NCBI GenBank assembly: GCA_037893245.1
Contig: JBAIAA010000255.1
Location: 558,001-622,000, forward strand
DNA: 64,000 nt
Source: Crossaster papposus
Lineage: Eukaryota > Echinodermata > Asteroidea > Velatida > Solasteridae
Direction of reading: 5' to 3'
In this document: in pieces, positions 1 through 64,000 of the stretch
Layout of the letters: each line of letters opens with the position of its first letter
Numbering within the stretch: position 1 is the first letter of the stretch
Notes under the pieces: generated by a model
Databases searched by the model: none
The model's input: the letters and a program-made list of their open reading frames with translations, nothing else
What the model was told of the DNA's origin: nothing
Position numbers and translations under genes: made by a program

Positions 1-68
1 TAGTGGCGCAGTTGAAGCGTGCTGGGCCCATAACCCAGAGGTCCGAGGATCGAAACCTCGCTCTGCTA
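1..68 (+). tRNA. Partial T1 iMet-like tRNA cut by window start
   Basis: This T1 copy lacks its first four bases because the window starts at acceptor position 5. The rest matches the T1 consensus, including the CAU loop and the AUCGAAA T-loop. It is followed by a decayed D1 at 100-171 and a T4-type element at 221-292 with one T-stem change, giving an irregular T1-D1-T4 monomer. Confidence 0.85.
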
Positions 69-394
69 ACAAGTTTTTGGTATGACATGAGGTACTCGAC
101 TCAGAGTGACAAAGTAGACACTTTCTTGGTCAGTACCCGAGAGTTTGGTTGACCACAACCTCGGTCTGCTCAGGATAATTATTTCCTTGAAAGTGATTTC
201 ATTTTCATTACAAATAGTTACGCAGAGTAGTGCAGCGGGAGCGTGATGGGCCCATAGCCCAGAGGTCCGAGGACCAAAACCTGGCTTTGCTAACTAGGTA
301 TTTTTGCTTCACTGCTATTCACATTTAATAAATATTGTAGAATGTTTTTAGAATGTCTGCTTTCATTTTGTTTGCATTTTCTAAATTTACATGA

Positions 395-466
395 GGCATA
401 GTGGCGCAGTTGAAGCGTGCTGGGCCCATAACCCAGAGGTCCGAGGATCGAAACCTCGCTCTGCTA
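395..466 (+). tRNA. T1 iMet-like tRNA (CAU)
   Basis: Matches the T1 consensus. Confidence 0.8.
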
Positions 467-1021
467 ACAAGTTTTTGGTATGACATGAGGTACTCGACTC
501 GGAGTGACAAAGTAGACACTTTCTTGGTCAGTACCCGAGAGTTTGGTTGACCACAACCTCGGTCTGCTCAGGATAATTATTTCCTTGAAAGTGATTTCAT
601 TTTCATTACAAATAGTTACGCAGAGTGGTGCAGTGGGATCGTGATGGGCCCATAACCCAGAGGCCCGAGGACCGAAACCTCGCTTTGCTAAAGAGTTATT
701 TTTGCTTCACTGTTATTCAAATTTAATAATTATTTTAGAATGTTTTTAGAATGTCTGCTTTTATTTTGTTTGTTGTTTTTCTAAATTTACATGAGGCATG
801 GTGGCGCAGTGGAAGCTTGCTGGGCCTAAAACCCAGAGTGCCGAGGATCAAAACCTCGTTCTGCTGCTAATAAGTTTTTGGTATGACTTGAAGTACTCGA
901 CTCAGAGTGACAAAGTAGACCCTTTCTTGGTCAGTAACCGAGAGTTCGGATGATCACAACCTCGGTCTGCTCAGGATAATTTTGTATTTGATAGGGATTT
1001 CATTTTCATTAAAAATAGTTA

Positions 1022-1086
1022 CGCAGAGTAGTGCAGCGGGAGCGTGATGGGCCCAGAGGTCCGAGGACCAAAACCTCGCTTTGCTA
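1022..1086 (+). pseudogene. T4 copy with 7-nt anticodon-loop deletion
   Basis: Only 65 nt long because seven bases of the anticodon arm between two CCC runs are missing, which makes this dimer 794 bp. Confidence 0.8.
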
Positions 1087-1188
1087 ACTAGGTATTTTTG
1101 CTTCACTGCTATTCACATTTAATAAATATTGTAGAATGTTTTTAGAATGTCTGCTTTCATTTTGTTTGCATTTTCTAAATTTACATGA

Positions 1189-1260
1189 GGCATAGTGGCG
1201 CAGTTGAAGCGTGCTGGGCCCATAACCCAGAGGTCCGAGGATCGAAACCTCGCTCTGCTA
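1189..1260 (+). tRNA. T1 iMet-like tRNA (CAU)
   Basis: Matches the T1 consensus. Confidence 0.8.
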
Positions 1261-1996
1261 ACAAGTTTTTGGTATGACATGAGGTACTCGACTCGGAGTG
1301 ACAAAGTAGACACTTTCTTGGTCAGTACCCGAGAGTTTGGTTGACCACAACCTCGGTCTGCTCAGGATAATTATTTCCTTGAAAGTGATTTCATTTTCAT
1401 TACAAATAGTTACGCAGAGTGGTGCAGTGGGATTGTGATGGGCCCATAACCCAGAGGCCCGAGGACCGAAACCTCGCTTTGCTAAAGAGGTATTTTTGCT
1501 TCACTGTTATTCAAATTTAATAATTATTTTAGAATGTTTTTAGAATGTCTGCTTTTATTTTGTTTGTTGTTTTTCTAAATTTACATGAGGCATGGTGGCG
1601 CAGTGGAAGCTTGCTGGGCCTATAACCCAGAGTGCCGAGGATCAAAACCTCGTTCTGCTGCTAATAAGTTTTTGGTATGACTTGAAGTACTCGACTCAGA
1701 GTGACAAAGTAGACCCTTTCTTGGTCAGTAACCGAGAGTTCGGATGATCACAACCTCGGTCTGCTCAGGAAAATTTTGTATTTGATAGGGATTTCATTTT
1801 CGTTAAAAATAGTTACGCAGAGTAGTGCAGCGGGAGCGTGATGGGCCCATAGCCCAGAGGTCCGAGGACCAAAACCTCGCTTTGCTAACTAGGTATTTTT
1901 GCTTCACTGCTATTCACATTTAATAAATATTGTAGAATGTTTTTAGAATGTCTGCTTTCATTTTGTTTGCATTTTCTAAATTTACATGAGGCATAG

Positions 1997-2007
1997 TGGC
2001 GCAGTTG
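1997..2007 (+). promoter_or_regulatory. Internal Pol III A box of T1
   Basis: TGGCGCAGTTG fits the A-box consensus TRGYNNARNNG at tRNA positions 8 onward. The same block is intact in nearly all T1 and T3 copies; exceptions are the T8G copies at 12368 and 13969. T2 and T4 carry weaker versions beginning TGGTGC and TAGTGC. Confidence 0.75.
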
Positions 2008-2039
2008 AAGCGTGCTGGGCCCATAACCCAGAGGTCCGA

Positions 2040-2050
2040 GGATCGAAACC
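2040..2050 (+). promoter_or_regulatory. Internal Pol III B box of T1
   Basis: GGATCGAAACC is the B-box form of eukaryotic iMet genes and would be the main TFIIIC contact. Equivalent blocks are GGACCGAAACC in T2, GGATCAAAACC in T3 and GGACCAAAACC in T4, so T3 and T4 have lost the central G of the TCGA core. Confidence 0.75.
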
Positions 2051-2066
2051 TCGCTCTGCTAACAAG

Positions 2067-2071
2067 TTTTT
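2067..2071 (+). terminator. Pol III T5 terminator after T1
   Basis: Five T residues begin six bases after the discriminator A. The run is present after nearly all T1 copies (at 19.65 kb it is followed by A rather than GG). Confidence 0.75.
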
Positions 2072-2092
2072 GGTATGACATGAGGTACTCGA

Positions 2093-2164
2093 CTCGGAGT
2101 GACAAAGTAGACACTTTCTTGGTCAGTACCCGAGAGTTTGGTTGACCACAACCTCGGTCTGCTC
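2093..2164 (+). pseudogene. D1 reference: decayed tRNA-iMet copy
   Basis: D1 is colinear with the tRNAs over exactly 72 nt and ends in the same CCTCG plus TCTGCT block. It preserves a full five-pair anticodon stem (CTTGG/CCGAG, one T-G wobble) with loop TCAGTAC. The D-arm and T-stem no longer pair properly and the acceptor has several mismatches. No T run of four or more follows immediately, unlike T1-T4. The A box is lost and the B box reduced, so I read it as an old pseudogene fixed in the monomer. Confidence 0.75.
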
Positions 2165-2213
2165 AGGATAATTATTTCCTTGAAAGTGATTTCATTTTCA
2201 TTACAAATAGTTA

Positions 2214-2285
2214 GGCAGAGTGGTGCAGTGGGATCGTGATGGGCCCATAACCCAGAGGCCCGAGGACCGAAACCTCGCTCTGCTA
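2214..2285 (+). tRNA. T2 reference: initiator-Met tRNA-like element (CAU)
   Basis: T2 has the better acceptor stem of the two CAU elements in monomer X. GCAGAG pairs perfectly with CTCTGC; position 1 is G here, wobbling with T72, and C in most other copies. The loop is CCCATAA with GGG/CCC pairs, but A27 x G43 is mismatched and the D-stem is weakened by T22 opposite C13. The T-loop is ACCGAAA (T55 changed to C). Many copies have CTTTGCT at the 3' side, which still pairs by wobble. Probably a tRNA pseudogene with a surviving Pol III layout. Confidence 0.7.
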
Positions 2286-2293
2286 AAGAGGTA

Positions 2294-2298
2294 TTTTT
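2294..2298 (+). terminator. Pol III T5 terminator after T2
   Basis: Five T residues start nine bases after the discriminator A. The run is conserved across nearly all T2 copies. Confidence 0.65.
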
Positions 2299-2389
2299 GC
2301 TTCACTGTTATTCAAATTTAATAATTATTTTAGAATGTTTTTAGAATGTCTGCTTTTATTTTGTTTGTTGTTTTTCTAAATTTACATGA
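2299..2389 (+). other. AT-rich spacer between T2 and T3
   Basis: About 90 bp rich in A+T, ending in acatgag just before T3. It contains a tandem tagaatg pair separated by four T residues. A deletion of 11 bp that removes one copy of this pair occurs near 3926, 7919 and 10312 and produces the 790-bp dimers. No gene is seen. In the other spacer type ttgttgtttttc is replaced by ttgcattttc. Confidence 0.85.
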
Positions 2390-2461
2390 GGCATGGTGGC
2401 GCAGTGGACGCTTGCTGGGCCTATAACCCAGAGTGCCGAGGATCAAAACCTCGTTCTGCTG
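2390..2461 (+). tRNA. T3 reference: iMet-derived tRNA-like element with UAU anticodon
   Basis: T3 has the initiator backbone (GGG/CCC anticodon stem, A54 and A60) but loop CCTATAA, so the anticodon reads UAU, the isoleucine AUA decoder, with C33 retained. The acceptor GGCATGG/TTCTGCT has a T5 x C68 mismatch and several wobbles. The D-stem has a C11 x T24 mismatch. The T-loop is ATCAAAA (G57 lost). The A box TGGCGCAGTGG is intact. The discriminator is G. Decoding as tRNA-Ile is unlikely; more likely a transcribable pseudogene. Confidence 0.65.
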
Positions 2462-2469
2462 CTAATAAG

Positions 2470-2474
2470 TTTTT
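2470..2474 (+). terminator. Pol III T5 terminator after T3
   Basis: Five T residues start nine bases after the T3 discriminator G. Present in nearly all copies; a T to G change near 9659 interrupts one. Confidence 0.65.
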
Positions 2475-2495
2475 GGTATGACTTGAAGTACTCGA

Positions 2496-2567
2496 CTCAG
2501 AGTGACAAAGTAGACCCTTTCTTGGTCAGTAACCGAGAGTTCGGATGATCACAACCTCGGTCTGCTC
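2496..2567 (+). pseudogene. D2 reference: decayed tRNA-iMet copy
   Basis: D2 aligns without gaps to an iMet tRNA. Over its first 42 nt about 29 positions match an iMet consensus. The anticodon stem CTTGG/CCGAG is fully paired with loop TCAGTAA, placing AGT at the anticodon positions. The T-stem and D-stem are broken. In several dimers one T of the TTT run at the end of the D-arm is lost (near 12094, 13695, 15296 and 18498). Confidence 0.75.
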
Positions 2568-2616
2568 AGGATAATGTTGTATTTGATAGGGATTCCATTT
2601 TCATTAAAAATAGTTA

Positions 2617-2688
2617 CGCAGAGTAGTGCAGCGGGAGCGTGATGGGCCCATAGCCCAGAGGTCCGAGGACCAAAACCTCGCTTTGCTA
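2617..2688 (+). tRNA. T4 reference: iMet-derived tRNA-like element (CAU)
   Basis: The acceptor CGCAGAG/CTTTGCT pairs at six positions (one G-T wobble) with a C1 x T72 mismatch. The loop is CCCATAG with TGGG/CCCA stem pairs and an A27 x G43 mismatch. The T-loop ACCAAAA departs from the initiator form at two positions. A T5 run follows at 2697-2701. Several copies have lost one G of the GGG run (for example near 11.42, 22.63, 23.43, 24.23, 26.63 and 27.43 kb), so the anticodon arm cannot form normally there. Best read as a pseudogene. Confidence 0.65.
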
Positions 2689-2701
2689 ACTAGGTATTTT
2701 T

Positions 2702-2790
2702 GCTTCACTGCTATTCACATTTAATAAATATTGTAGAATGTTTTTAGAATGTCTGCTTTCATTTTGTTTGCATTTTCTAAATTTACATGA
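2702..2790 (+). other. AT-rich spacer between T4 and next T1
   Basis: Related to the T2-T3 spacer, with gctattcaca in place of gttattcaaa and ttgcattttc in place of the ttgttg block. It ends in acatgag before T1. No gene or further signal is seen. Confidence 0.85.
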
Positions 2791-2862
2791 GGCATAGTGG
2801 CGCAGTTGAAGCGTGCTGGGCCCATAACCCAGAGGTCCGAGGATCGAAACCTCGCTCTGCTA
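2791..2862 (+). tRNA. T1 iMet-like tRNA (CAU)
   Basis: Matches the T1 consensus. Its dimer carries a T3-D2 linker variant (ctcgtctcag) also found in the dimers at 6785 and 9177. Confidence 0.8.
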
Positions 2863-3591
2863 ACAAGTTTTTGGTATGACATGAGGTACTCGACTCGGAG
2901 TGACAAAGTAGACACTTTCTTGGTCAGTACCCGAGAGTTTGGTTGACCACAACCTCGGTCTGCTCAGGATAATTATTTCCTTGAAAGTGATTTCATTTTC
3001 ATTACAAATAGTTAGGCAGAGTGGTGCAGTGGGATCGTGATGGGCCCATAACCCAGAGGCCCGAGGACCGAAACCTCGCTCTGCTAAAGAGGTATTTTTG
3101 CTTCACTGTTATTCAAATTTAATAATTATTTTAGAATGTTTTTAGAATGTCTGCTTTTATTTTGTTTGTTGTTTTTCTAAATTTACATGAGGCATGGTGG
3201 CGCAGTGGACGCTTGCTGGGCCTATAACCCAGAGTGCCGAGGATCAAAACCTCGTTCTGCTGCTAATAAGTTTTTGGTATGACTTGAAGTACTCGTCTCA
3301 GAGTGACAAAGTAGACCCTTTCTTGGTCAGTAACCGAGAGTTCGGATGATCACAACCTCGGTCTGCTCAGGATAATTTTGTATTTGATAGGGATTTCATT
3401 TTCATTAAAAATAGTTACGCAGAGTAGTGCAGCGGGAGCGTGATGGGCCCATAGCACAGAGGTCCGAGGACCAAAACCTCGCTTTGCTAACTAGGTATTT
3501 TTGCTTCACTGCTATTCACATTTAATAAATATTGTAGAATGTTTTTAGAATGTCTGCTTTCATTTTGTTTGCATTTTCTAAATTTACATGA

Positions 3592-3663
3592 GGCATAGTG
3601 GCGCAGTTGAAGCGTGCTGGGCTTATAACCCAGAGGTCCGAGGATCGAAACCTCGCTCTGCTA
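3592..3663 (+). tRNA. T1 variant with UAU anticodon
   Basis: The loop is CTTATAA: C33-C34 changed to TT, restoring U33 and giving anticodon UAU. The dimer is 790 bp through an 11-bp spacer deletion. Confidence 0.75.
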
Positions 3664-4381
3664 ACAAGTTTTTGGTATGACATGAGGTACTCGACTCGGA
3701 GTGACAAAGTAGACACTTTCTTGGTCAGTACCCGAGAGTTTGGTTGACCACAACCTCGGTCTGCTCAGGATAATTATTTCCTTGAAAGTGATTTCATTTT
3801 CATTACAAATAGTTAGGCAGAGTGGTGCAGTGGGATCGTGATGGGCCCATAACCCAGAGGCCCGAGGACCGAAACCTCGCTCTGCTAAAGAGGTATTTTT
3901 GCTTCACTGTTATTCAAATTTAATAATGTTTTTAGAATGTCTGCTTTTATTTTGTTTGTTGTTTTTCTAAATTTACATGAGGCATGGTGGCGCAGTGGAC
4001 GCTTGCTGGGCCTATAACCCAGAGTGCCGAGGATCAAAACCTCGTTCTGCTGCTAATAAGTTTTTGGTATGACTTGAAGTACTCGACTCAGAGTGACAAA
4101 GTAGACCCTTTCTTGGTCAGTAACCGAGAGTTCGGATGATCACAACCTCGGTCTGCTCAGGATAATTTTGTATTTGATAGGGATTTCATTTTCATTAAAA
4201 ATAGTTACGCAGAGTAGTGCAGCGGGAGCGTGATGGGCCCATAGCCCAGAGGTCCGAGGACCAAAACCTCGCTTTGCTAACTAGGTATTTTTGCTTCACT
4301 GCTATTCACATTTAATAAATATTGTAGAATGTTTTTAGAATGTCTGCTTTCATTTTGTTTGCATTTTCTAAATTTACATGA

Positions 4382-4453
4382 GGCATAGTGGCGCAGTTGA
4401 AGCGTGCTGGGCCCATAACCCAGAGGTCCGAGGATCGAAACCTCGCTCTGCTA
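4382..4453 (+). tRNA. T1 iMet-like tRNA (CAU)
   Basis: Matches the T1 consensus. Confidence 0.8.
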
Positions 4454-5182
4454 ACAAGTTTTTGGTATGACATCAGGTACTCGACTCGGAGTGACAAAGT
4501 AGACACTTTCTTGGTCAGTACCCGAGAGTTTGGTTGACCACAACCTCGGTCTGCTCAGGATAATTATTTCCTTGAAAGTGATTTCATTTTCATTACAAAT
4601 AGTTAGGCAGAGTGGTGCAGTGGGATCGTGATGGGCCCATAACCCAGAGGCCCGAGGACCGAAACCTCGGTTTGCTAAAGAGGTATTTTTGCTTCACTGT
4701 TATTCAAATTTAATAATTATTTTAGAATGTTTTTAGAATGTCTGCTTTTATTTTGTTTGTTGTTTTTCTAAATTTACATGAGGCATGGTGGCGCAGTGGA
4801 AGCTTGCTGGGCCTATAACCCAGAGTGCCGAGGATCAAAACCTCGTTCTGCTGCTAATAAGTTTTTGGTATGACTTGAAGTACTCGACTCAGAGTGACAA
4901 AGTAGACCCTTTCTTGGTCAGTAACCGAGAGTTCGGATGATCACAACCTCGGTCTGCTCAGGAAAATTTTGTATTTGATAGGGATTTCATTTTCGTTAAA
5001 AATAGTTACGCAGAGTAGTGCAGCGGGAGCGTGATGGGCCCATAGCCCAGAGGTCCGAGGACCAAAACCTCGCTTTGCTAACTAGGTATTTTTGCTTCAC
5101 TGCTATTCACATTTAATAAATATTGTAGAATGTTTTTAGAATGTCTGCTTTCATTTTGTTTGCATTTTCTAAATTTACATGA

Positions 5183-5254
5183 GGCATAGTGGCGCAGTTG
5201 AAGCGTGCTGGGCCCATAACCCAGAGGTCCGAGGATCGAAACCTCGCTCTGCTA
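5183..5254 (+). tRNA. T1 iMet-like tRNA (CAU)
   Basis: Matches the T1 consensus. Its dimer shares a spacer variant (ttttaagaatg) with the one at 8376. Confidence 0.8.
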
Positions 5255-5983
5255 ACAAGTTTTTGGTATGACATGAGGTACTCGACTCGGAGTGACAAAG
5301 TAGACACTTTCTTGGTCAGTACCCGAGAGTTTGGTTGACCACAACCTCGGTCTGCTCAGGATAATTATTTCCTTGAAAGTGATTTCATTTTCATTACAAA
5401 TAGTTACGCAGAGTGGTGCAGTGGGATTGTGATGGGCCCATAACCCAGAGGCCCGAGGACCGAAACCTCGCTTTGCTAAAGAGGTATTTTTGCTTCACTG
5501 TTATTCAAATTTAATAATTATTTTAGAATGTTTTAAGAATGTCTGCTTTTATTTTGTTTGTTGTTTTTCTAAATTTACATGAGGCATGGTGGCGCAGTGG
5601 AAGCTTGCTGGGCCTATAACCCAGAGTGCCGAGGATCAAAACCTCGTTCTGCTGCTAATAAGTTTTTGGTATGACTTGAAGTACTCGACTCAGAGTGACA
5701 AAGTAGACCCTTTCTTGGTCAGTAACCGAGAGTTCGGATGATCACAACCTCGGTCTGCTCAGGATAATTTTGTATTTGATAGGGATTTCATTTTCGTTAA
5801 AAATAGTTACGCAGAGTAGTGCAGCGGGAGCGTGATGGGCCCATAGCCCAGAGGTCCGAGGACCAAAACCTCGCTTTGCTAACTAGGTATTTTTGCTTCA
5901 CTGCTATTCACATTTAATAAATATTGTAGAATGTTTTTAGAATGTCTGCTTTCATTTTGTTTGCATTTTCTAAATTTACATGA

Positions 5984-6055
5984 GGCATAGTGGCGCAGTT
6001 GAAGCGTGCTGGGCCCATAACCCAGAGGTCCGAGGATCGAAACCTCGCTCTGCTA
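5984..6055 (+). tRNA. T1 iMet-like tRNA (CAU)
   Basis: Matches the T1 consensus. Confidence 0.8.
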
Positions 6056-6784
6056 ACAAGTTTTTGGTATGACATGAGGTACTCGACTCGGAGTGACAAA
6101 GTAGACACTTTCTTGGTCAGTACCCGAGAGTTTGGTTGACCACAACCTCGGTCTGCTCAGGATAATTATTTCCTTGAAAGTGATTTCATTTTCATTACAA
6201 ATAGTTAGGCAGAGTGGTGCAGTGGGATCGTGATGGGCCCATAACCCAGAGGCCCGAGGACCGAAACCTCGCTCTGCTAAAGAGGTATTTTTGCTTCACT
6301 GTTATTCAAATTTAATAATTATTTTAGAATGTTTTTAGAATGTCTGCTTTTATTTTGTTTGTTGTTTTTCTAAATTTACATGAGGCATGGTGGCGCAGTG
6401 GACGCTTGCTGGGCCTATAACCCAGAGTGCCGAGGATCAAAACCTCGTTCTGCTGCTAATAAGTTTTTGGTATGACTTGAAGTACTCGACTCAGAGTGAC
6501 AAAGTAGACCCTTTCTTGGTCAGTAACCGAGAGTTCGGATGATCACAACCTCGGTCTGCTCAGGATAATTTTGTATTTGATAGGGATTTCATTTTCGTTA
6601 AAAATAGTTACGCAGAGTAGTGCAGCGGGAGCGTGATGGGCCCATAGCCCAGAGGTCCGAGGACCAAAACCTCGCTTTGCTAACTAGGTATTTTTGCTTC
6701 ACTGCTATTCACATTTAATAAATATTGTAGAATGTTTTTAGAATGTCTGCTTTCATTTTGTTTGCATTTTCTAAATTTACATGA

Positions 6785-6856
6785 GGCATAGTGGCGCAGT
6801 TGAAGCGTGCTGGGCCCATAACCCAGAGGTCCGAGGATCGAAACCTCGCTCTGCTA
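6785..6856 (+). tRNA. T1 iMet-like tRNA (CAU)
   Basis: Matches the T1 consensus. Confidence 0.8.
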
Positions 6857-7585
6857 ACAAGTTTTTGGTATGACATGAGGTACTCGACTCGGAGTGACAA
6901 AGTAGACACTTTCTTGGTCAGTACCCGAGAGTTTGGTTGACCACAACCTCGGTCTGCTCAGGATAATTATTTCCTTGAAAGTGATTTCATTTTCATTACA
7001 AATAGTTAGGCAGAGTGGTGCAGTGGGATCGTGATGGGCCCATAACCCAGAGGCCCGAGGACCGAAACCTCGCTCTGCTAAAGAGGTATTTTTGCTTCAC
7101 TGTTATTCAAATTTAATAATTATTTTAGAATGTTTTTAGAATGTCTGCTTTTATTTTGTTTGTTGTTTTTCTAAATTTACATGAGGCATGGTGGCGCAGT
7201 GGACGCTTGCTGGGCCTATAACCCAGAGTGCCGAGGATCAAAACCTCGTTCTGCTGCTAATAAGTTTTTGGTATGACTTGAAGTACTCGTCTCAGAGTGA
7301 CAAAGTAGACCCTTTCTTGGTCAGTAACCGAGAGTTCGGATGATCACAACCTCGGTCTGCTCAGGATAATTTTGTATTTGATAGGGATTTCATTTTCATT
7401 AAAAATAGTTACGCAGAGTAGTGCAGCGGGAGCGTGATGGGCCCATAGCACAGAGGTCCGAGGACCAAAACCTCGCTTTGCTAACTAGGTATTTTTGCTT
7501 CACTGCTATTCACATTTAATAAATATTGTAGAATGTTTTTAGAATGTCTGCTTTCATTTTGTTTGCATTTTCTAAATTTACATGA

Positions 7586-7657
7586 GGCATAGTGGCGCAG
7601 TTGAAGCGTGCTGGGCTTATAACCCAGAGGTCCGAGGATCGAAACCTCGCTCTGCTA
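7586..7657 (+). tRNA. T1 variant with UAU anticodon
   Basis: Loop CTTATAA as at 3592, with the same 11-bp spacer deletion downstream: a copy of the same ancestral dimer 3,994 bp away. Confidence 0.75.
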
Positions 7658-8375
7658 ACAAGTTTTTGGTATGACATGAGGTACTCGACTCGGAGTGACA
7701 AAGTAGACACTTTCTTGGTCAGTACCCGAGAGTTTGGTTGACCACAACCTCGGTCTGCTCAGGATAATTATTTCCTTGAAAGTGATTTCATTTTCATTAC
7801 AAATAGTTAGGCAGAGTGGTGCAGTGGGATCGTGATGGGCCCATAACCCAGAGGCCCGAGGACCGAAACCTCGCTCTGCTAAAGAGGTATTTTTGCTTCA
7901 CTGTTATTCAAATTTAATAATGTTTTTAGAATGTCTGCTTTTATTTTGTTTGTTGTTTTTCTAAATTTACATGAGGCATGGTGGCGCAGTGGACGCTTGC
8001 TGGGCCTATAACCCAGAGTGCCGAGGATCAAAACCTCGTTCTGCTGTTAATAAGTTTTTGGTATGACTTGAAGTACTCGACTCAGAGTGACAAAGTAGAC
8101 CCTTTCTTGGTCAGTAACCGAGAGTTCGGATGATCACAACCTCGGTCTGCTCAGGATAATGTTGTATTTGATAGGGATTCCATTTTCATTAAAAATAGTT
8201 ACGCAGAGTAGTGCAGCGGGAGCGTGATGGGCCCATAGCCCAGAGGTCCGAGGACCAAAACCTCGCTTTGCTAACTAGGTATTTTTGCTTCACTGCTATT
8301 CACATTTAATAAATATTGTAGAATGTTTTTAGAATGTCTGCTTTCATTTTGTTTGCATTTTCTAAATTTACATGA

Positions 8376-8447
8376 GGCATAGTGGCGCAGTTGAAGCGTG
8401 CTGGGCCCATAACCCAGAGGTCCGAGGATCGAAACCTCGCTCTGCTA
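8376..8447 (+). tRNA. T1 iMet-like tRNA (CAU)
   Basis: Matches the T1 consensus. Confidence 0.8.
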
Positions 8448-9176
8448 ACAAGTTTTTGGTATGACATGAGGTACTCGACTCGGAGTGACAAAGTAGACAC
8501 TTTCTTGGTCAGTACCCGAGAGTTTGGTTGACCACAACCTCGGTCTGCTCAGGATAATTATTTCCTTGAAAGTGATTTCATTTTCATTACAAATAGTTAC
8601 GCAGAGTGGTGCAGTGGGATTGTGATGGGCCCATAACCCAGAGGCCCGAGGACCGAAACCTCGCTTTGCTAAAGAGGTATTTTTGCTTCACTGTTATTCA
8701 AATTTAATAATTATTTTAGAATGTTTTAAGAATGTCTGCTTTTATTTTGTTTGTTGTTTTTCTAAATTTACATGAGGCATGGTGGCGCAGTGGAAGCTTG
8801 CTGGGCCTATAACCCAGAGTGCCGAGGATCAAAACCTCGTTCTGCTGCTAATAAGTTTTTGGTATGACTTGAAGTACTCGACTCAGAGTGACAAAGTAGA
8901 CCCTTTCTTGGTCAGTAACCGAGAGTTCGGATGATCACAACCTCGGTCTGCTCAGGATAATTTTGTATTTGATAGGGATTTCATTTTCGTTAAAAATAGT
9001 TACGCAGAGTAGTGCAGCGGGAGCGTGATGGGCCCATAGCCCAGAGGTCCGAGGACCAAAACCTCGCTTTGCTAACTAGGTATTTTTGCTTCACTGCTAT
9101 TCACATTTAATAAATATTGTAGAATGTTTTTAGAATGTCTGCTTTCATTTTGTTTGCATTTTCTAAATTTACATGA

Positions 9177-9248
9177 GGCATAGTGGCGCAGTTGAAGCGT
9201 GCTGGGCCCATAACCCAGAGGTCCGAGGATCGAAACCTCGCTCTGCTA
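9177..9248 (+). tRNA. T1 iMet-like tRNA (CAU)
   Basis: Matches the T1 consensus. Confidence 0.8.
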
Positions 9249-9977
9249 ACAAGTTTTTGGTATGACATGAGGTACTCGACTCGGAGTGACAAAGTAGACA
9301 CTTTCTTGGTCAGTACCCGAGAGTTTGGTTGACCACAACCTCGGTCTGCTCAGGATAATTATTTCCTTGAAAGTGATTTCATTTTCATTACAAATAGTTA
9401 GGCAGAGTGGTGCAGTGGGATCGTGATGGGCCCATAACCCAGAGGCCCGAGGACCGAAACCTCGCTCTGCTAAAGAGGTATTTTTGCTTCACTGTTATTC
9501 AAATTTAATAATTATTTTAGAATGTTTTTAGAATGTCTGCTTTTATTTTGTTTGTTGTTTTTCTAAATTTACATGAGGCATGGTGGCGCAGTGGACGCTT
9601 GCTGGGCCTATAACCCAGAGTGCCGAGGATCAAAACCTCGTTCTGCTGCTAATAAGTGTTTGGTATGACTTGAAGTACTCGTCTCAGAGTGACAAAGTAG
9701 ACCCTTTCTTGGTCAGTAACCGAGAGTTCGGATGATCACAACCTCGGTCTGCTCAGGATAATTTTGTATTTGATAGGGATTTCATTTTCATTAAAAATAG
9801 TTACGCAGAGTAGTGCAGCGGGAGCGTGATGGGCCCATAGCACAAAGGTCCGAGGACCAAAACCTCGCTTTGCTAACTAGGTATTTTTGCTTCACTGCTA
9901 TTCACATTTAATAAATATTGTAGAATGTTTTTAGAATGTCTGCTTTCATTTTGTTTGCATTTTCTAAATTTACATGA

Positions 9978-30094: not shown

Positions 30095-30111
30095 TTGAAG
30101 TACTTGAAGGG
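30095..30111. other. Orientation-switch junction of the array
   Basis: The + array stops three bases into a D2 element (its acceptor bases c-t-c end at 30094). The - array starts inside the variable loop of a T2 element near 30110. The linker repeats the flank: cttgaagtact occurs at 30078-30088 and again at 30094-30104, and cttgaag again at 30103-30109. This looks like a short templated or microhomology-driven join. The arms next to the junction are not mirror copies (T3 with its own spacer on the left, truncated T2 then D2 then T3 on the right), which argues against a simple fold-back read artefact. Confidence 0.85.
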
Positions 30112-54718: not shown

Positions 54719-55436
54719 TCATGTAAATTTAGAAAATGCAAACAAAATGAAAGCAGACATTCTACAATATTTATTAAATGTGAATAGCAGTGAAGCAAAA
54801 ATACCTAGTTAGCAAAGCGAGGTTTTGGTCCTCGGACCTCTGGGCTATGGGCCCATCACGCTCCCGCTGCACTACTCTGCGTAACTATTTTTAATGAAAA
54901 TGAAATCCCTATCAAATACAAAATTATCCTGAGCAGACCGAGGTTGTGATCATCCGAACTCTCGGTTACTGACCAAGAAAGGGTCTACTTTGTCACTCTG
55001 AGTCGAGTACTTCAAGTCATACCAAAAACTTATTAGCAGCAGAACGAGGTTTTGATCCTTGGCACTCTGGGTTATAGGCCCAGCAAGCTTCCACTGCGCC
55101 ACCATGCCTCATGTAAATTTAGAAAAACAACAAACAAAATAAAAGCAGACATTCTAAAAACATTCTAAAATAAATATTAAATTTGAATAACAGTGAAGCA
55201 AAAATACCTCTTTAGCAGAGCGAGGTTTCGGTCCTCGGGCCTCTGGGTTATGGGCTCATCACGATCCCACTGCACCACTCTGAGTAACTATTTGTAATGA
55301 AAATGAAATCACTTTCAAGGAAATAATTATCCTGAGCAGACCGAGGTTGTGGTCAACCAAACTCTCGGGTACTGACCAAGAAAGTGTCTACTTTGTCACT
55401 CCGAGTCGAGTACCTCATGTCATACCAAAAACTTGT

Positions 55437-55508
55437 TAGCAGAGCGAGGTTTCGATCCTCGGACCTCTGGGTTATGGGCCCAGCACGCTTCAACTGCGCC
55501 ACTATGCC
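55437..55508 (-). tRNA. T1 iMet-like tRNA (CAU)
   Basis: Consensus; partner of 47090 at a distance of 8,347 bp. Confidence 0.8.
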
Positions 55509-56237
55509 TCATGTAAATTTAGAAAATGCAAACAAAATGAAAGCAGACATTCTAAAAACATTCTACAATATTTATTAAATGTGAATAGCAGTGAAGCAAA
55601 AATACCTAGTTAGCAAAGCGAGGTTTTGGTCCTCGGACCTCTGGGCTATGGGCCCATCACGCTCCCGCTGCACTACTCTGCGTAACTATTTTTAATGAAA
55701 ATGAAATCCCTATCAAATACAAAATTATCCTGAGCAGACCGAGGTTGTGATCATCCGAACTCTCGGTTACTGACCAAGAAAGGGTCTACTTTGTCACTCT
55801 GAGTCGAGTACTTCAAGTCATACCAAAAACTTATTAGCAGCAGAACGAGGTTTTGATCCTCGGCACTCTGGGTTATAGGCCCAGCAAGCTTCCACTGCGC
55901 CACCATGCCTCATGTAAATTTAGAAAAACAACAAACAAAATAAAAGCAGACATTCTAAAAACATTCTAAAATAATTATTAAATTTGAATAACAGTGAAGC
56001 AAAAATACCTCTTTTGCAGAGCGAGGTTTCGGTCCTCGGGCCTCTGGGTTATGGGCCCATCACGATCCCACTGCACCACTCTGCGTAACTATTTGTAATG
56101 AAAATGAAATCACTTTCAAGGAAATAATTATCCTGAGCAGACCGAGGTTGTGGTCAACCAAACTCTCGGGTACTGACCAAGAAAGTGTCTACTTTGTCAC
56201 TCCGAGTCGAGTACCTCATGTCATACCAAAAACTTGT

Positions 56238-56309
56238 TAGCAGAGCGAGGTTTCGATCCTCGGACCTCTGGGTTATGGGCCCAGCACGCTTCAACTGCGC
56301 CACAATGGC
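56238..56309 (-). tRNA. T1 variant, 5' acceptor altered
   Basis: Partner of 47891 at a distance of 8,347 bp. Confidence 0.72.
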
Positions 56310-57038
56310 TCATGTAAATTTAGAAAATGCAAACAAAATGAAAGCAGACATTCTAAAAACATTCTACAATATTTATTAAATGTGAATAGCAGTGAAGCAA
56401 AAATACCTAGTTAGCAAAGCGAGGTTTTGGTCCTCGGACCTCTGGGCTATGGGCCCATCACGCTCCCGCTGCACTACTCTGCGTAACTATTTTTAATGAA
56501 AATGAAATCCCTATCAAATACAAAATTATCCTGAGCAGACCGAGGTTGTGATCATCCGAACTCTCGGTTACTGACCAAGAAAGGGTCTACTTTGTCACTC
56601 TGAGTCGAGTACTTCAAGTCATACCAAAAACTTATTAGCAGCAGAACGAGGTTTTGATCCTCGGCACTCTGGGTTGTAGGCCCAGCAAGCTTCCACTGCG
56701 CCACCATGCCTCATGTAAATTTAGAAAAACAACAAACAAAATAAAAGCAGACATTCTAAAAACATTCTAAAATAATTATTAAATTGAAATAACAGTGAAG
56801 CAAAAATACCCCTTTAGCAGAGCGAGGTTTCGGTCCTCGGGCCTCTGGGTTATGGGCCAATCACGATCCCACTGCACCACTCTGCGTAACTATTTGTAAT
56901 GAAAATGAAATCACTTTCAAGGAAATAATTATCCTGAGCAGACCGAGGTTGTGGTCAACCAAACTCTCGGGTACTGACCAAGAAAGTGTCTACTTTGTCA
57001 CTCCGAGTCGAGTACCTCATGTCATACCAAAAACTTGT

Positions 57039-57103
57039 TAGCAGAGCGAGGTTTTGATCCTCTGGGTTATGGGCCCAGCACGCTTCAACTGCGCCACTAT
57101 GCC
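57039..57103 (-). pseudogene. T1 with 7-nt deletion at variable loop/T-stem
   Basis: Fourth copy of this deletion, outside the 1.6-kb tandem series. Confidence 0.78.
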
Positions 57104-57832
57104 TCATGTAAATTTAGAAAATGCAAACAAAATGAAAGCAGACATTCTAAAAATATTCTACAATATTTATTAAATCTGAATAGCAGTGAAGCAAAAATAC
57201 CTAGTTAGCAAAGCGAGGTTTTGGTCCTCGGACCTCTGCGCTATGGGCCCATCACGCTCCCGCTGCACTACTCTGCGTAACTATTTTTAATGAAAATGAA
57301 ATCCCTATCAAATACAAAATTATCCTGAGCAGACCGAGGTTGTGATCATCCGAACTCTCGGTTACTGACCAAGAAAGGGTCTACTTTGTCACTCTGAGTC
57401 GAGTAGTTCAAGTCATACCAAAAACTTATTAGCAGCAGAACGAGGTTTTGATCCTCGGCACTCTGGGTTATAGGCCCAGCAAGCTTCCACTGCGCCACCA
57501 TGCCTCATGTAAATTTAGAAAAACAACAAACAAAATAAAAGCAGACATTCTAAAAACATTCTAAAATAATTATTAAATTTGAATAACAGTGAAGCAAAAA
57601 TACCTCTTTAGCAGAGCGAGGTTTCGGTCCTCGGGCCTCTGGGTTATGGGCCCATCACGATCCCACTGCACCACTCTGCGTAACTATTTGTAATGAAAAT
57701 GAAATCACTTTCAAGGAAATAATTATCCTGAGCAGACCGAGGTTGTGGTCAACCAAACTCTCGGGTACTGACCAAGAAAGTGTCTACTTTGTCACTCCGA
57801 GTCGAGTACCTCATGTCATACCAAAAACTTGT

Positions 57833-57904
57833 TAGCAGAGCGAGGTTTCGATCCTCGGACCTCTGGGTTATGGGCCCAGCACGCTTCAACTGCGCCACTA
57901 TGCC
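57833..57904 (-). tRNA. T1 iMet-like tRNA (CAU)
   Basis: Consensus body. Confidence 0.8.
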
Positions 57905-58633
57905 TCATGTAAATTTAGAAAATGCAAACAAAATGAAAGCAGACATTCTAAAAACATTCTACAATATTTATTAAATGTGAATAGCAGTGAAGCAAAAATA
58001 CCTAGTTAGCAAAGCGAGGTTTTGGTCCTCGGACCTCTGGGCTATGGGCCCATCACGCTCCCGCTGCACTACTCTGCGTAACTATTTTTAATGAAAATGA
58101 AATCCCTATCAAATACAACATTATCCTGAGCAGTCCGAGGTTGTGATCATCCGAACTCTCGGTTACTGACCAAGAAAGGGTCTACTTTGTCACTCTGAGT
58201 CGAGTACTTCAAGTCATACCAAAAACTTATTAGCAACAGAATGAGGTTTTGATCCTCGGCACTCTGGGTTATAGGCCCAGCAAGCTTCCACTGCGCCACC
58301 ATGCCTCATGTAAATTTAGAAAAACAACAAACAAAATAAAAGCAGACATTCTAAAAACATTCTAAAATAATTATTAAATTTAAATAACAGTGAAGCAAAA
58401 ATACCTCTTTAGCAGAGCGAGGTTTCGGTCCTCGGGCCTCTGGGTTATGGGCCCATCACGATCCCACTGCACCACTCTGCGTAACTATTTGTAATGAAAA
58501 TGAAATCACTTTCAAGGAAATAATTATCCTGAGCAGACCGAGGTTGTGGTCAACCAAACTCTCGGGTACTGACCAAGAAAGTGTCTACTTTGTCACTCCG
58601 AGTCGAGTACCTCATGTCATACCAAAAACTTGT

Positions 58634-58705
58634 TAGCAGAGCGAGGTTTCGATCCTCGGACCTCTGGGTTATGGGCCCAGCACGCTTCAACTGCGCCACT
58701 ATGCC
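58634..58705 (-). tRNA. T1 iMet-like tRNA (CAU)
   Basis: Consensus body. Confidence 0.8.
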
Positions 58706-59434
58706 TCATGTAAATTTAGAAAATGCAAACAAAATGAAAGCAGACATTCTAAAAACATTCTACAATATTTATTAAATGTGAATAGCAGTGAAGCAAAAAT
58801 ACCTAGTTAGCAAAGCGAGGTTTTGGTCCTCGGACCTCTGGGCTATGGGCCCATCACGCTCCCGCTGCACTACTCTGCGTAACTATTTTTAATGAAAATG
58901 AAATCCCTATCAAATACAAAATTATCCTGAGCAGACCGAGGTTGTGATCATCCGAACTCTCGGTTACTGACCAAGAAAGGGTCTACTTTGTCACTCTGAG
59001 TCGAGTACTTCAAGTCATACCAAAAACTTATTAGCAACAGAACGATGTTTTGATCCTCGGCACTCTGGGTTATAGGCCCAGCAAGCTTCCACTGCGCCAC
59101 CATGCCTCATGTAAATTTAGAAAAACAACAAACAAAATAAAAGCAGACATTCTAAAAACATTCTAAAATAATTATTAAATTTGAATAACAGTGAAGCAAA
59201 AATACTTCTTTAGCAGAGCGAGGTTTCGGTCCTCGGGCCTCTGGGTTATGGGCCCATCACGATCCCACTGCACCACTCTGCGTAACTATTTGTAATGAAA
59301 ATGAAATCACTTTCAAGGAAATAATTATCCTGAGCAGACCGAGGTTGTGGTCAACCAAACTCTCGGGTACTGACCAAGAAAGTGTCTACTTTGTCACTCC
59401 GAGTCGAGTACCTCATGTCATACCAAAAACTTGT

Positions 59435-59506
59435 TAGCAGAGCGAGGTTTCGATTCTCGGACCTCTGGGTTATGGGCCCAGCACGCTTCAACTGCGCCAC
59501 TATGCC
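59435..59506 (-). tRNA. T1 variant, T-stem change
   Basis: The last T-stem base before the loop is A instead of G, so this pair is lost and the B box is altered. Confidence 0.74.
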
Positions 59507-61041
59507 TCATGTAAATTTAGAAAATGCAAACAAAATGAAAGCAGACATTCTAAAAACATTCTACAATATTTATTAAATGTGAATAGCAGTGAAGCAAAAA
59601 TACCTAGTTAGCAAAGCGAGGTTTTGGTCCTCGGACCTTTGGGCTATGGGCCCATCACGCTCCCGCTGCACTACTCTGCGTAACTATTTTTAATGAAAAT
59701 GAAATCCCTATCAAATACAAAATTATCCTGAGCAGACCGAGGTTGTGATCATCCGAACTCTCGGTTACTGACCAAGAAAGGGTCTACTTTGTCACACTGA
59801 GTCGAGTACTTCAAGTCATACCAAAAACTTATTAGCAGCAGAACAAGGTTTTGATCCTCGGCACTCTGGGTTATAGGCCCAGCAAGCTTCCACTGCGCCA
59901 CCATGCCTCATGTAAATTTAGAAAAACAACAAACAAAATAAAAGCAGACATTCTAAAAACATTGTAAAATAATTATTAAATTTGAATAACAGTGAAGCAA
60001 AAATACCTCTTTAGCAGAGCGAGGTTTCGGTCCTCGGGCCTCTTGGTTATGGGCCCATCACGATCCCACTGCACCACTCTGCGTAACTATTTGTAATGAA
60101 AATGAAATCACTTTCAAGGAAATAATTATCCTGAGCAGACCGAGGTTGTGGTCAACCAAACTCTCGGTTACTGACCAAGAAAGGGTCTACTTTGTCACTC
60201 TGAGTCGAGTACTTCAAGTCATACCAAAAACTTATTAGCAGCAGAACGAGGTTTTGATCCTCGGCACTCTGGGTTATAGGCCCAGCAAGCTTCCACTGCG
60301 CCACCATGCCTCATGTAAATTTAGAAAAACAACAAACAAAATGAAAGCAGACATTCTAAAAACATTCTACAATATTTATTAAATGTGAATAGCAGTGAAG
60401 CAAAAATACCTAGTTAGCAAAGCGAGGTTTTGGTCCTCGGACCTCTGGGCTATGGGCCCATCACGCTCCCGCTGCACTACTCTGCGTAACTATTTTTAAT
60501 GAAAATGAAATCCCTATCAAATACAACATTATCCTGAGCAGACCGAGGTTGTGATCATCCGAACTCTCGGTTACTGACCAAGAAAGGGTCTACTTTGTCA
60601 CTCTGAGTCGAGTACTTCAAGTCATACCAAAAACTTATTAGCAGCAGAACGAGGTTTTGATCCTCGGCACTCTGGGTTATAGGCCCAGCAAGCTTCCACT
60701 GCGCCACCATGCCTCATGTAAATTTTGAAAAACAACAAACAAAATAAAAGCAGACATTCTAAAAACATTCTAAAATAATTATTAAATTTGAATAACAGTG
60801 AAGCAAAAATACCTCTTTAGCAGAGCGAGGTTTCGGTCCTCGGGCCTCTGGGTTATGGGCCCATCACGATCCCACTGCACCACTCTGCGTAACTATTTGT
60901 AATGAAAATGAAATCACTTTCAAGGAAATAATTATCCTGAGCAGACCGAGGTTGTGGTCAACCAAACTCTCGGGTACTGACCAAGAAAGTGTCTACTTTG
61001 TCACTCCGAGTCGAGTACCTCATGTCATACCAAAAACTTGT

Positions 61042-61113
61042 TAGCAGAGCGAGGTTTCGATCCTCGGACCTCTGGGTTATGGGCCCAGCACGCTTCAACT
61101 GCGCCACTATGCC
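61042..61113 (-). tRNA. T1 iMet-like tRNA (CAU)
   Basis: Consensus; 1,607 bp from the previous T1 because a D1/D2 hybrid near 60.17 kb leads to T3 instead. Confidence 0.8.
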
Positions 61114-62648
61114 TCATGTAAATTTAGAAAATGCAAACAAAATGAAAGCAGACATTCTAAAAACATTCTACAATATTTATTAAATGTGAATAGCAGTGAA
61201 GCAAAAATACCTAGTTAGCAAAGCGAGGTTTTGGTCCTCGGACCTCTGGGCTATGGGCCCATCACGCTCCCGCTGCACTACTCTGCGTAACTATTTTTAA
61301 TGAAAATGAAATCCCTATCAAATACAACATTATCCTGAGCAGACCGAGGTTGTGATCATCCGAACTCTCGGTTACTGACCAAGAAAGGGTCTACTTTGTC
61401 ACACTGAGTCGAGTACTTCAAGTCATACCAAAAACTTATTAGCAGCAGAACAAGGTTTTGATCCTCGGCACTCTGGGTTATAGGCCCAGCAAGCTTCCAC
61501 TGCGCCACCATGCCTCATGTAAATTTAGAAAAACAACAAACAAAATAAAAGCAGACATTCTAAAAACATTCTAAAATAATTATTAAATTTGAATAACAGT
61601 GAAGCAAAAATACCTCTTTAGCAGAGCGAGGTTTCGGTCCTCGGGCCTCTTGGTTATGGGCCCATCACGATCCCACTGCACCACTCTGCGTAACTATTTG
61701 TAATGAAAATGAAATCACTTTCAAGGAAATAATTATCCTGAGCAGACCGAGGTTGTGGTCAACCAAACTCTCGGTTACTGACCAAGAAAGGGTCTACTTT
61801 GTCACTCTGAGTCGAGTACTTCAAGTCATACCAAAAACTTATTAGCAGCAGAACGAGGTTTTGATCCTCGGCACTCTGGGTTATAGGCCCAGCAAGCTTC
61901 CACTGCGCCACCATGCCTCATGTAAATTTAGAAAAACAACAAACAAAATGAAAGCAGACATTCTAAAAACATTCTACAATATTTATTAAATGTGAATAGC
62001 AGTGAAGCAAAAATACCTAGTTAGCAAAGCGAGGTTTTGGTCCTTGGACCTCTGGGCTATGGGCCCATCACGCTCCCGCTGCACTACTCTGCGTAACTAT
62101 TTTTAATGAAAATGAAATCCCTATCAAATACAACATTATCCTGAGCAGACCGAGGTTGTGATCATCCGAACTCTCGGTTACTGACCAAGAAAGGGTCTAC
62201 TTTGTCACTCTGAGTCGAGTACTTCAAGTCATACCAAAAACTTATTAGCAGCAGAACGAGGTTTTGATCCTCGGCACTCTGGGTTATAGGCCCAGCAAGC
62301 TTCCACTGCGCCACCATGCCTCATGTAAATTTTGAAAAACAACAAACAAAATAAAAGCAGACATTCTAAAAACATTCTAAAATAATTATTAAATTTGAAT
62401 AACAGTGAAGCAAAAATACCTCTTTAGCAGAGCGAGGTTTCGGTCCTCGGGCCTCTGGGTTATGGGCCCATCACGATCCCACTGCACCACTCTGCGTAAC
62501 TATTTGTAATGAAAATGAAATCACTTTCAAGGAAATAATTATCCTGAGCAGACCGAGGTTGTGGTCAACCAAACTCTCGGGTACTGACCAAGAAAGTGTC
62601 TACTTTGTCACTCCGAGTCGAGTACCTCATGTCATACCAAAAACTTGT

Positions 62649-62720
62649 TAGCAGAGCGAGGTTTTGATCCTCGGACCTCTGGGTTATGGGCCCAGCACGC
62701 TTCAACTGCGCCACTATGCC
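62649..62720 (-). tRNA. T1 variant, T-loop G57A
   Basis: T-loop ATCAAAA; 1,607 bp from the previous T1. Confidence 0.74.
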
Positions 62721-63442
62721 TCATGTAAATTTAGAAAATGCAAACAAAATGAAAGCAGACATTCTAAAAACATTCTACAATATTTATTAAATGTGAATAG
62801 CAGTGAAGCAAAAATACCTAGTTAGCAAAGCGAGGTTTTGGTCCTCGGACCTCTGGGCTATGGGCCCATCACGCTCCCGCTGCACTACTCTGCGTAACTA
62901 TTTTTAATGAAAATGAAATCCCTATCAAATACAACATTATCCTGAGCAGACCGAGGTTGTGATCATCCGGACTCTCGGTTACTGACCAAGAAAGGGTCTA
63001 CTTTGTCACTCTGAGTCGAGTACTTCAAGTCATACCAAAAACTTATTAGCGGCAGAACGAGGTTTTGATCCTTGGCACTCTGGGTTATAGGCCCAGCAAG
63101 CTTCCACTGCGCCACCATGCCTCGTGTAAATTTAGAAAAACAACAAACAAAATAAAAGCAGACATTCTAAAAACATTCTAAAATAATTATTAAATTTGAA
63201 TAACAGTGAAGCAAAAATACCTCTTTAGCAGAGCGAGGTTTCGGTCCTCGGGCCTCTGGGCCCATCACGATCCCACTGCACCACTCTGCGTAACTATTTG
63301 TAATGAAAATGAAATCACTTTCAAGGAAATAATTATCCTGAGCAGACCGAGGTTGTGGTCAACCAAACTCTCGGGTACTGACCAAGAAAGTGTCTACTTT
63401 GTCACTCCGAGTCGAGTACCTCATGTCATACCAAAAACTTGT

Positions 63443-63514
63443 TAGCAGAGCGAGGTTTCGATCCTCGGACCTCTGGGTTATGGGCCCAGCACGCTTCAAC
63501 TGCGCCACTATGCC
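63443..63514 (-). tRNA. T1 iMet-like tRNA (CAU), last full copy in window
   Basis: Consensus body; the X-monomer T2 below it (near 63.26 kb) has the 7-nt anticodon-loop deletion. Confidence 0.8.
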
Positions 63515-63843
63515 TCATGTAAATTTAGAAAATGCAAACAAAATGAAAGCAGACATTCTAAAAACATTCTACAATATTTATTAAATGTGAATAGCAGTGA
63601 AGCAAAAATACCTAGTTAGCAAAGCGAGGTTTGGGTCCTCGGACCTCTGGGCTATGGGCCCATCACGCTCCCGCTGCACTACTCTGCGTAACTATTTTTA
63701 ATGAAAATGAAATCCCTATCAAATACAAAATTATCCTGAGCAGACCGAGGTTGTGATCATCCGAACTCTCGGTTAGTGACCAAGAAAGGGTCTACTTTGT
63801 CACTCTGAGTCGAGTACTTCAAGTCATACCAAAAACTTATTAG

Positions 63844-63915
63844 CAGCAGAACGAGGTTTTGATCCTCGGCACTCTGGGTTATAGGCCCAGCAAGCTTCCA
63901 CTGCGCCACCATGCC
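63844..63915 (-). tRNA. T3 element (UAU), last element in window
   Basis: Typical T3 body; the remaining 85 bases to the window end are T2-T3 spacer. Confidence 0.7.
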
Positions 63916-64000
63916 TCATGTAAATTTAGAAAAACAACAAACAAAATAAAAGCAGACATTCTAAAAACATTCTAAAATAATTATTAAATTTGAATAACAG

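Follow-up and report, generated by a model that had tools for sequence, protein, structure and literature searches.

Searches with TRF and with a monomer HMM show that the window, by which we mean the whole 64-kb stretch of sea star DNA analyzed, is satellite DNA made of long head-to-tail arrays of a near-identical ~400-bp unit. TRF resolves two arrays that practically abut, one on the plus strand at positions 1 to 30094 (period 398, 75.3 copies) and one on the minus strand at 30109 to 64000 (period 403, 84.9 copies), and 162 monomer HMM matches, 159 of them full length and three partial, tile the 64 kb with gaps of 1 to 2 bp. A preliminary description of this DNA, which had taken the whole window to be an array of ~400-bp monomers and had proposed a tandem-repeat search as a check, was therefore correct on this point, as it was in pairing the monomers into an X/Y dimer. 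Indeed, the 159 full monomers, which include 108 distinct sequences, comprise 74 of type X, 77 of type Y and 8 others, arranged mainly as a dimer of ~800 bp. Examples on the plus strand are an X monomer of 400 bp at 395 to 794 and a Y monomer of 401 bp at 1589 to 1989. In the plus arm, where the dimer spacing is mostly 800 to 801 bp, X and Y alternate with no same-type neighbors among 75 full monomers; the minus arm contains 10 same-type neighboring pairs among 84 full monomers. The orientation flips at ~30.1 kb, a switch that the preliminary description overlooked, and the junction (about 30095 to 30108) carries a short insert that by eye resembles part of the adjoining monomer.

Within each monomer lie three relatives of the initiator tRNA, iMet: A, which is 72 or 75 nt long, C, of ~73 nt, and B, of 72 nt. 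This bears out the earlier claim of three diverged iMet copies per monomer; with 162 monomer matches this gives about 486 positions (3 × 162), close to the 480 elements first estimated. The tRNA models suggested as a check do recognize these elements, though fewer of them: Rfam RF00005 yields 207 window matches above the gathering score (150 of the 207 were listed), and ARAGORN makes 61 calls, 52 as Met and 9 as Ile-TAT. In the example X monomer (all elements on the plus strand), the iMet-derived element A at 395 to 466, called as Met by ARAGORN and scored at 49.8 bits by Rfam, keeps the CAT anticodon and shows a G1:U72 combination and a 5:68 mismatch. Behind it lies a T5 run resembling a Pol III terminator (467 to 480), followed by element C (498 to 570), which sequence comparison identifies as a strongly degenerate iMet relative, and element B (619 to 690), an iMet-derived pseudogene with the mispairs usual in the X form, at 1:72, in the D-stem and at 27:43. 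In the example Y monomer, also on the plus strand, Rfam and sequence comparison place a 75-nt element A at 1589 to 1663, with a 3-nt insertion in the acceptor arm and a TAT anticodon, and the sequence places element B at 1816 to 1887. Among the 159 full window monomers, the CCCATAA loop is retained in 69 A elements, and the B-box-like string in A reads GGATCGAAACC in 72 and GGATCAAAACC in 85. A run of five or more T residues lies no more than 20 nt from A in 151 of the 159, and a T-run follows B in 156; this retention is open to a Pol III reading and counts against viewing the satellite as dead. Inspected by eye, the monomer shows no SINE-like unrelated body or retroposon tail.

Stem pairing was assessed in the window and 16 other stretches, together holding 474 monomers with 948 A and B elements, of which 640 of standard length were scored and 308 of other length set aside. 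Two of the stretches (L011 and L012) have 4 kb in common, and the 10 doubled monomers were removed (484 to 474) for the stem-pairing and canonical-start counts and kept in the survey of A and B forms. A single element of the 640 is free of mispaired stems, leaving 639 with at least one. The A-T pair at 1:72 occurs in none of the 223 standard-length A elements and in 4 of the 417 B elements, and most of the 223 also have a 5:68 mismatch. The 75-nt A form (the Y type, which carries the 3-nt insertion and in most cases the anticodon TAT) makes up 231 of 474 A elements. None of the 474 monomers has the canonical start, and the window contains no exact copy of the 72-nt iMet. The A1:U72 pair is a feature of initiator tRNAs, and the window elements lack the complete cloverleaf with A1:U72 of a functional one. 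In addition, X and Y differ by 11.1% in A, 8.2% in C and 9.6% in B, compared with 8.8 to 14.9% in the spacers; because the tRNA parts diverge much like the spacers, no tRNA-specific constraint is evident in the window subfamily. Judged by their sequences, the A and B elements of the window are pseudogenes, and the earlier designation of them as genes does not stand.

The window subfamily is abundant: a genome-wide count over both strands gives 8,835 matches to X, which bears on the assembly copy number that had been called for. The satellite family occurs on at least 13 contigs and thus has the high copy number at many places expected of a satellite. Single contigs (C784 and C13) carry it at two or more separate places, and of the stretches sampled on C146, those at 3.09, 3.40 and 3.617 to 3.623 Mb contain it, whereas the one at 3.63 Mb does not. 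Its edges against other DNA lie at C255:525711 and C833:691056, and a second orientation switch, at ~869.49 kb on C833, has a junction that differs from the one at 30.1 kb. Pfam searches of 10 flank ORFs identified one RING/B-box/NHL protein and one integrase, with no match for the other 8.

Although absent from the window, the exact 72-nt iMet sequence has 1,281 copies in the genome. The 100 places listed for it are all on C146; besides these, four exact copies lie in stretches L036 and L038 of that contig and a solo gene lies at C885:574009-574080. The solo gene, whose flanks have no match among the sequences compared, is identical to the array gene and so confirms the iMet sequence. The C146 arrays contain genes with a complete cloverleaf and A1:U72, scoring 58.7 bits. 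Exact copies were located in L035, L036, L038 and L040, and the exact-iMet stretches on C146 also carry the partner elements and spacers of the window; consistent with this, the window monomer profile matches L035, L037, L040, L041 and L043 along their length. The repeat unit of these arrays combines an A element that is often intact and has a T-run to itself with degenerate C and B elements, as well as D; its A-C-B spacing is mostly 103/121/174, and it shares element order and kind of spacers with the window monomer. Exact genes also run at 174-bp spacing. Relative to iMet, B has 6 to 10 mismatches and C 21 to 30 of 72, and A is exact in 8 of 29 cases. The remaining 21 of the 29 A elements are not exact; decay is thus common in these arrays too, which weighs against the origin proposed below for the window. 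The exact genes in other arrays of the repeat family had been overlooked in the preliminary description.

Spacer divergence is at least 5% in 109 of 136 pairs of intact-array monomers, and of these 109, 13 share an identical A, 3 an identical C and none an identical B. The intact arrays thus lean toward conservation of A, opposite to the window, in a sample of 17 distinct monomers from one contig whose pairs are not independent; over all 17, the diversity of A (0.043) hardly differs from that of C (0.047). Uniformity of A in these arrays could also be the result of gene conversion. The low A diversity of the low-mismatch monomer set was not used as evidence because that set is picked by A itself, which would be circular.

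In the pieces sampled, Gly(GCC) genes, picked beforehand as a control, occupy their own tandem arrays with a unit of ~141 bp, and Lys(UUU) genes do so with units of ~576 and ~770 bp. Lys was picked as the top of the tRNA model search, which makes it a biased gauge of the generality of such arrays. The iMet, Gly-GCC and Lys-UUU arrays in these pieces are each tandem arrays of intact genes for a single isoacceptor, which the window is not. An Asp-tRNA pattern based on vertebrates gave no matches, an outcome that is uninformative about Asp in this species.

We consider it probable (roughly 0.8) that the window is an offshoot, pseudogenized and dimerized, of a gene array for iMet and has spread as a satellite. 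The ancestor would have been a tandem array of initiator-tRNA genes, one intact-type unit of which lost its working A and then split into X and Y. Unequal exchange and array transfer would have amplified the X-Y dimer, and the dimer array would have dispersed to numerous sites, undergoing local inversions. The polarity from gene array to satellite is argued from the logic of the sequences rather than from a sea star outgroup. The window array is predicted to yield no initiator tRNA and to persist as a satellite kept uniform by concerted evolution, probably packed as heterochromatin. What is left of its Pol III promoters, together with the T-runs, may still bind TFIIIC or give rise to short Pol III transcripts; nothing shows selection on these parts.

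That the window elements are instead working initiator-tRNA genes amplified for dosage, for example for egg translation, is very improbable, and we rejected it. Although 69 of 159 A elements retain the CCCATAA loop, T-runs are kept and 207 Rfam matches were obtained, the window has no exact iMet, none of the 223 standard-length A elements and 4 of the 417 B elements have A1:U72, a mispaired stem occurs in all but one of 640 elements, and X and Y have changed equally fast in tRNA parts and spacers. The dosage idea could hold for the intact arrays in other parts of the genome, which has 1,281 exact iMet copies. A SINE-derived satellite, in which the monomer would stem from a tRNA-headed retroposon and not from a gene array, finds some support in the repeat periods, since 174 and 398 bp both fall within the SINE range. 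Such satellites are also described in squamates (PMC10702118). However, A in the related arrays is often a complete exact iMet with an immediate T-run, exact genes run at 174-bp spacing, the array gene is identical to the solo gene, the unit holds three tRNA copies with no other body seen, and the Gly and Lys genes share a similar tandem layout, all of which make this origin improbable.

It is also unlikely that the satellite has been selected as a chromatin element, whether through Pol III boxes recruiting TFIIIC as insulators or through centromeric arrays. The spread over at least 13 contigs, the occurrence on C146 at 3.09, 3.40 and 3.617 to 3.623 Mb and none at 3.63 Mb in the stretches sampled, the B-box-like string in A elements of the window monomers and the kept T-runs would suit such a role, whereas the X-Y conservation of the tRNA parts is no better than that of the spacers, and the separate places on one contig (C784; C13) argue against the centromeric reading. 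An assembly artefact, with repeat reads collapsed or misjoined, might be suspected in DNA that is so repetitive and that flips orientation both at 30.1 kb in the window and at ~869.49 kb on C833. This was rejected as extremely improbable, given the 108 distinct sequences among the 159 full monomers, the differing junctions, the edges adjoining other DNA on two contigs and the presence of the family on at least 13.

Several known systems come close to the window satellite. The Arabidopsis SYY unit has three tRNAs, and tandem or clustered tRNA genes, as in the sea star, are found in animals in the Xenopus 3.18-kb tDNA repeat, which includes Met genes, and in zebrafish clusters. As described in PMC2888827, adjoining tRNA genes in the clawed frog and zebrafish are mostly of different kinds, whereas the sea star arrays are single-isoacceptor. 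Almost all tRNA genes of Entamoeba are reported to lie in tandem arrays, with 25 array units of up to five tRNA genes each and short tandem repeats between genes (PMC2652664); in contrast, the sea star arrays examined hold one tRNA species each, and the window holds pseudogenes. The SYY cluster is likewise a tandem repeat of tRNA-gene units, which by the account in PMC12308677 extends into heterochromatin and is silenced in most tissues, but it is one Ser/Tyr cluster, whereas the sea star has derivatives of one gene in thousands of units on many contigs. The frog satellite PcP190, as presented in PMC11675491, is related to 5S rDNA, with ~190-bp repeats that contain one 120-bp gene-like part, in genomes that also hold 5S rDNA. 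The window satellite resembles it in having a Pol III gene-like part and differs in that this part is iMet rather than 5S rRNA, present in three copies per ~400-bp monomer and arranged in an X/Y dimer. The squamate satellites are described as derived from small Pol III-type repeats, from retroposon parts, with loci of up to 1000 units and a suggested dimer-based elongation (PMC10702118); unlike these, the sea star satellite most likely arose from gene arrays.

The pseudogenized offshoot and the C146 arrays would represent a gene family caught in the act of becoming a satellite, its intact and dead stages coexisting in one genome, and would tie tRNA gene number to satellite birth. They suggest that this animal genome organizes its tRNA genes in the manner of 5S rDNA, with a single tRNA species in each array. 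As a tentative generalization, which we regard as possible but somewhat doubtful, sea stars may hold most tRNA genes in separate tandem arrays, each specific to one isoacceptor and evolving in concert as 5S rDNA does. Such arrays would include more than 1,000 identical iMet genes and would go on shedding dead-gene satellites, of which the present one would now be a main, perhaps centromeric, satellite. In Asterias amurensis, 6,779 tRNAs are reported (PMC11090083), and large sea star tRNA counts of this kind may need rereading in light of dead-gene satellites and single-species arrays.

The view in the preliminary description of the whole 64 kb as an array of ~400-bp monomers was borne out by TRF and by tiling with a monomer profile, which together reveal one satellite composed of two abutting tandem arrays (window positions 1-30094 and 30109-64000). 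The 162 profile matches tile the window with gaps of only 1-2 bp, and 159 are full length, representing 108 distinct sequences. The monomers are oriented + to the left of ~30.1 kb and - to the right, and this switch explains why both GC and AT skew flip sign at the array junction. The X and Y monomer types proposed earlier were also recovered among the full-length window monomers (X, n = 74; Y, n = 77; other, n = 8); by eye, the larger groups among the remaining eight resemble X/Y recombinants. No same-type neighbors occur among the 75 full monomers of the + arm, which starts with a monomer that is neither X nor Y; the - arm (84 full monomers) contains 10 same-type neighboring pairs, and the dimer period is mostly 800-801 bp.

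In each monomer, element A is separated from element C by a spacer containing a T5 run, and C from element B by a second spacer; a third spacer, with a T5 run and T-rich sequence, extends from B to the next A. Element A is 72 nt in X and 75 nt in Y. The initiator tRNA (iMet) origin of A and B is plain from the CCCATAA loop and the ATCGAAA/ACCGAAA T-loop in X, and C lies in the same frame as iMet, with 21-30 differences from it in the intact arrays. Rfam gave 207 tRNA matches in the window and ARAGORN 61 tRNA calls. The earlier claim that these elements are initiator-tRNA genes did not hold for the window, as the stems are mispaired, the initiator pair A1:U72 is nearly absent and a search for the exact iMet gene found 0 copies there. 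A standard 72-nt cloverleaf was fitted to the A and B elements of 474 monomers, taken from five contigs altogether (the window plus 16 further stretches, with overlap between stretches removed). Standard length was found in 223 A and 417 B elements; 308 of 948 elements were of other length, including 231 A of 75 nt, and were set aside. All stem pairs were intact in 1 of the 223 A and 0 of the 417 B elements, A1:U72 was present in 0 and 4 of them, respectively, and none of the 474 monomers carries the canonical iMet start. X-Y divergence is similar in the elements (A, 11.1%; C, 8.2%; B, 9.6%) and the three spacers (9.7%, 14.9% and 8.8%), so no additional constraint is visible on the tRNA parts.

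The 5'-terminal 35 nt of animal iMet (≤2 mismatches) gave 252 + 5,140 genome matches, and stretches of contig C146 taken at such matches carry the window's monomer profile over their length. These stretches show the order A-C-B, with spacing mostly of 103/121/174 bp and additional 174-bp units (D). Four of them (L035-L038) hold 29 A elements, of which 8 match the canonical gene exactly and 18 have ≤2 differences; B differs from iMet at 6-10 positions and C at 21-30. The exact gene scores 58.7 bits (Rfam), and the exact 72-mer has 1,281 genome copies (41 forward, 1,240 reverse). The 100 exact copies with listed positions are all on C146; 1,180 reverse copies fall outside this set, four of which were located on C146 as well, in L036 and L038. 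Near 6.5 Mb of C146 the same repeat family is decayed, with 7-11 differences in the non-C elements.

An exact iMet copy with a T-run also lies on C885 (574009-574080), alone within 2 kb. Together with the 40 listed forward copies on C146, this solo gene accounts for all 41 forward copies. The satellite profile aligns to it only across the gene and about nine further bases, and its flanks, compared with the other stretches, gave no match at E 1e-3. The C885 gene independently attests the exact 72-mer as the true iMet gene of the host.

Diversity in the intact arrays was assessed in a small sample of 17 distinct A-C-B monomers from one contig (136 pairs, which are not independent). A has a diversity of 0.043, and the T-run spacer that follows it 0.014; C (0.047) is near A, whereas B reaches 0.072 and the remaining spacers 0.062-0.075. 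Spacers differ by ≥5% in 109 of the 136 pairs; of these 109, 13 share an identical A and 3 an identical C, against 0 for B. This tilts the reading towards A being under selection or gene conversion in these arrays.

The window occupies C255:558001-622000 of the host assembly (1.02 Gb, 1,841 contigs). There, 12 of 18 ten-kb stretches sampled from five contigs are wholly satellite (two of these overlap) and 6 contain none; the satellite borders other DNA at C255:525711 and C833:691056. An X-specific 35-mer (≤2 mismatches) has 8,835 genome matches (4,774 on one strand and 4,061 on the other). If every X represents one ~800-bp dimer, the satellite would total about 7 Mb. Satellite matches occur on at least 13 contigs (C13, C60, C79, C146, C255, C262, C424, C463, C735, C784, C807, C833 and C862). 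A second orientation switch, at L018:9488 (C833, ~869.49 kb), lies within a B element, at the palindrome GGGCCC, with a junction unlike that of the window. At L034:495-1056 (C146, ~3.6175 Mb), ~560 bp of unrelated, internally repeated DNA is inserted within a satellite monomer, and a retroelement integrase ORF (rve, Integrase_p58_C; L031:2259-3167) lies ~0.5 kb beyond the C255 array edge. The end of C146 (L042) carries another tandem repeat, with a unit estimated by eye at roughly 85 bp, to which the satellite profile has 0 matches.

Homology, decay, copy number and intact relatives are demonstrated steps in the origin of the satellite; the direction of descent, the amplification mechanism and heterochromatin are inferred. 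Most likely, a working iMet array would have expanded by duplication within its unit, with exchange and conversion holding some A genes exact as C, B and D decayed. One unit would then have lost its A, with changes at positions 1 and 5 that are common to both types, and split into X and Y. The X-Y pair would have been amplified and transferred to many places. The differing junctions at 30.1 kb of the window and near 869.49 kb of C833 suggest repeated inversion within arrays.

Related kinds of repeat are already known, namely the 5S-related PcP190, the Entamoeba arrays, Arabidopsis SYY and SINE-derived satellites; among the open-licence papers listed, none describes a sea star satellite derived from iMet or sea star tRNA arrays confined to one isoacceptor each. 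As a yardstick, tRNA-Gly(GCC) gave 341 + 1 genome matches. Among those listed, all but two are on C656, in one direction and many at 141-bp steps. The tandem array lies at C656:540-720 kb (L044; ~141-bp unit), and 1.5 kb of this contig holds eight Gly(GCC) genes of 59-67 bits. In a genome-wide tRNA model search, many top rows among the 63 scored of 213,984 first-look candidates are on C479. One top-scoring C479 row, and one on C424, have Lys(UUU) identity, and Lys was selected because it topped this search. Its 5' part has 804 genome matches; those listed fall on just two contigs, at ~770-bp steps on C424 and ~576-bp steps on C479, in tandem arrays at C424:1.269-1.376 Mb and on C479 from 19 kb (L045, L046). 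The match layouts of Gly, Lys and iMet thus indicate single-isoacceptor tandem arrays for all three tRNA species with a matching pattern. An Asp pattern based on vertebrates had 0 genome matches and is uninformative. The Lys(UUU) array on C424 changes orientation.

The mitochondrial contig C1841 contains COX1 with in-frame TGA codons, which reads well under table 9. Frames resembling ND4L and COX2 come after it; upstream of COX1 are tRNA genes, mostly on the opposite strand, and a minus-strand frame resembling ND1 (these three frames recognized by eye). Sea urchins differ from asteroids in this mitochondrial arrangement. ND1, ND2, ND6 and 16S of Acanthaster lie on the strand opposite most genes, and another asteroid shares their order (PMC1382216). 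On these grounds the host is a sea star. Contig C8 (>5 Mb) is bacterial-looking, with stop-free COX1 frames and high-scoring tRNAs, and probably represents an associated bacterium.
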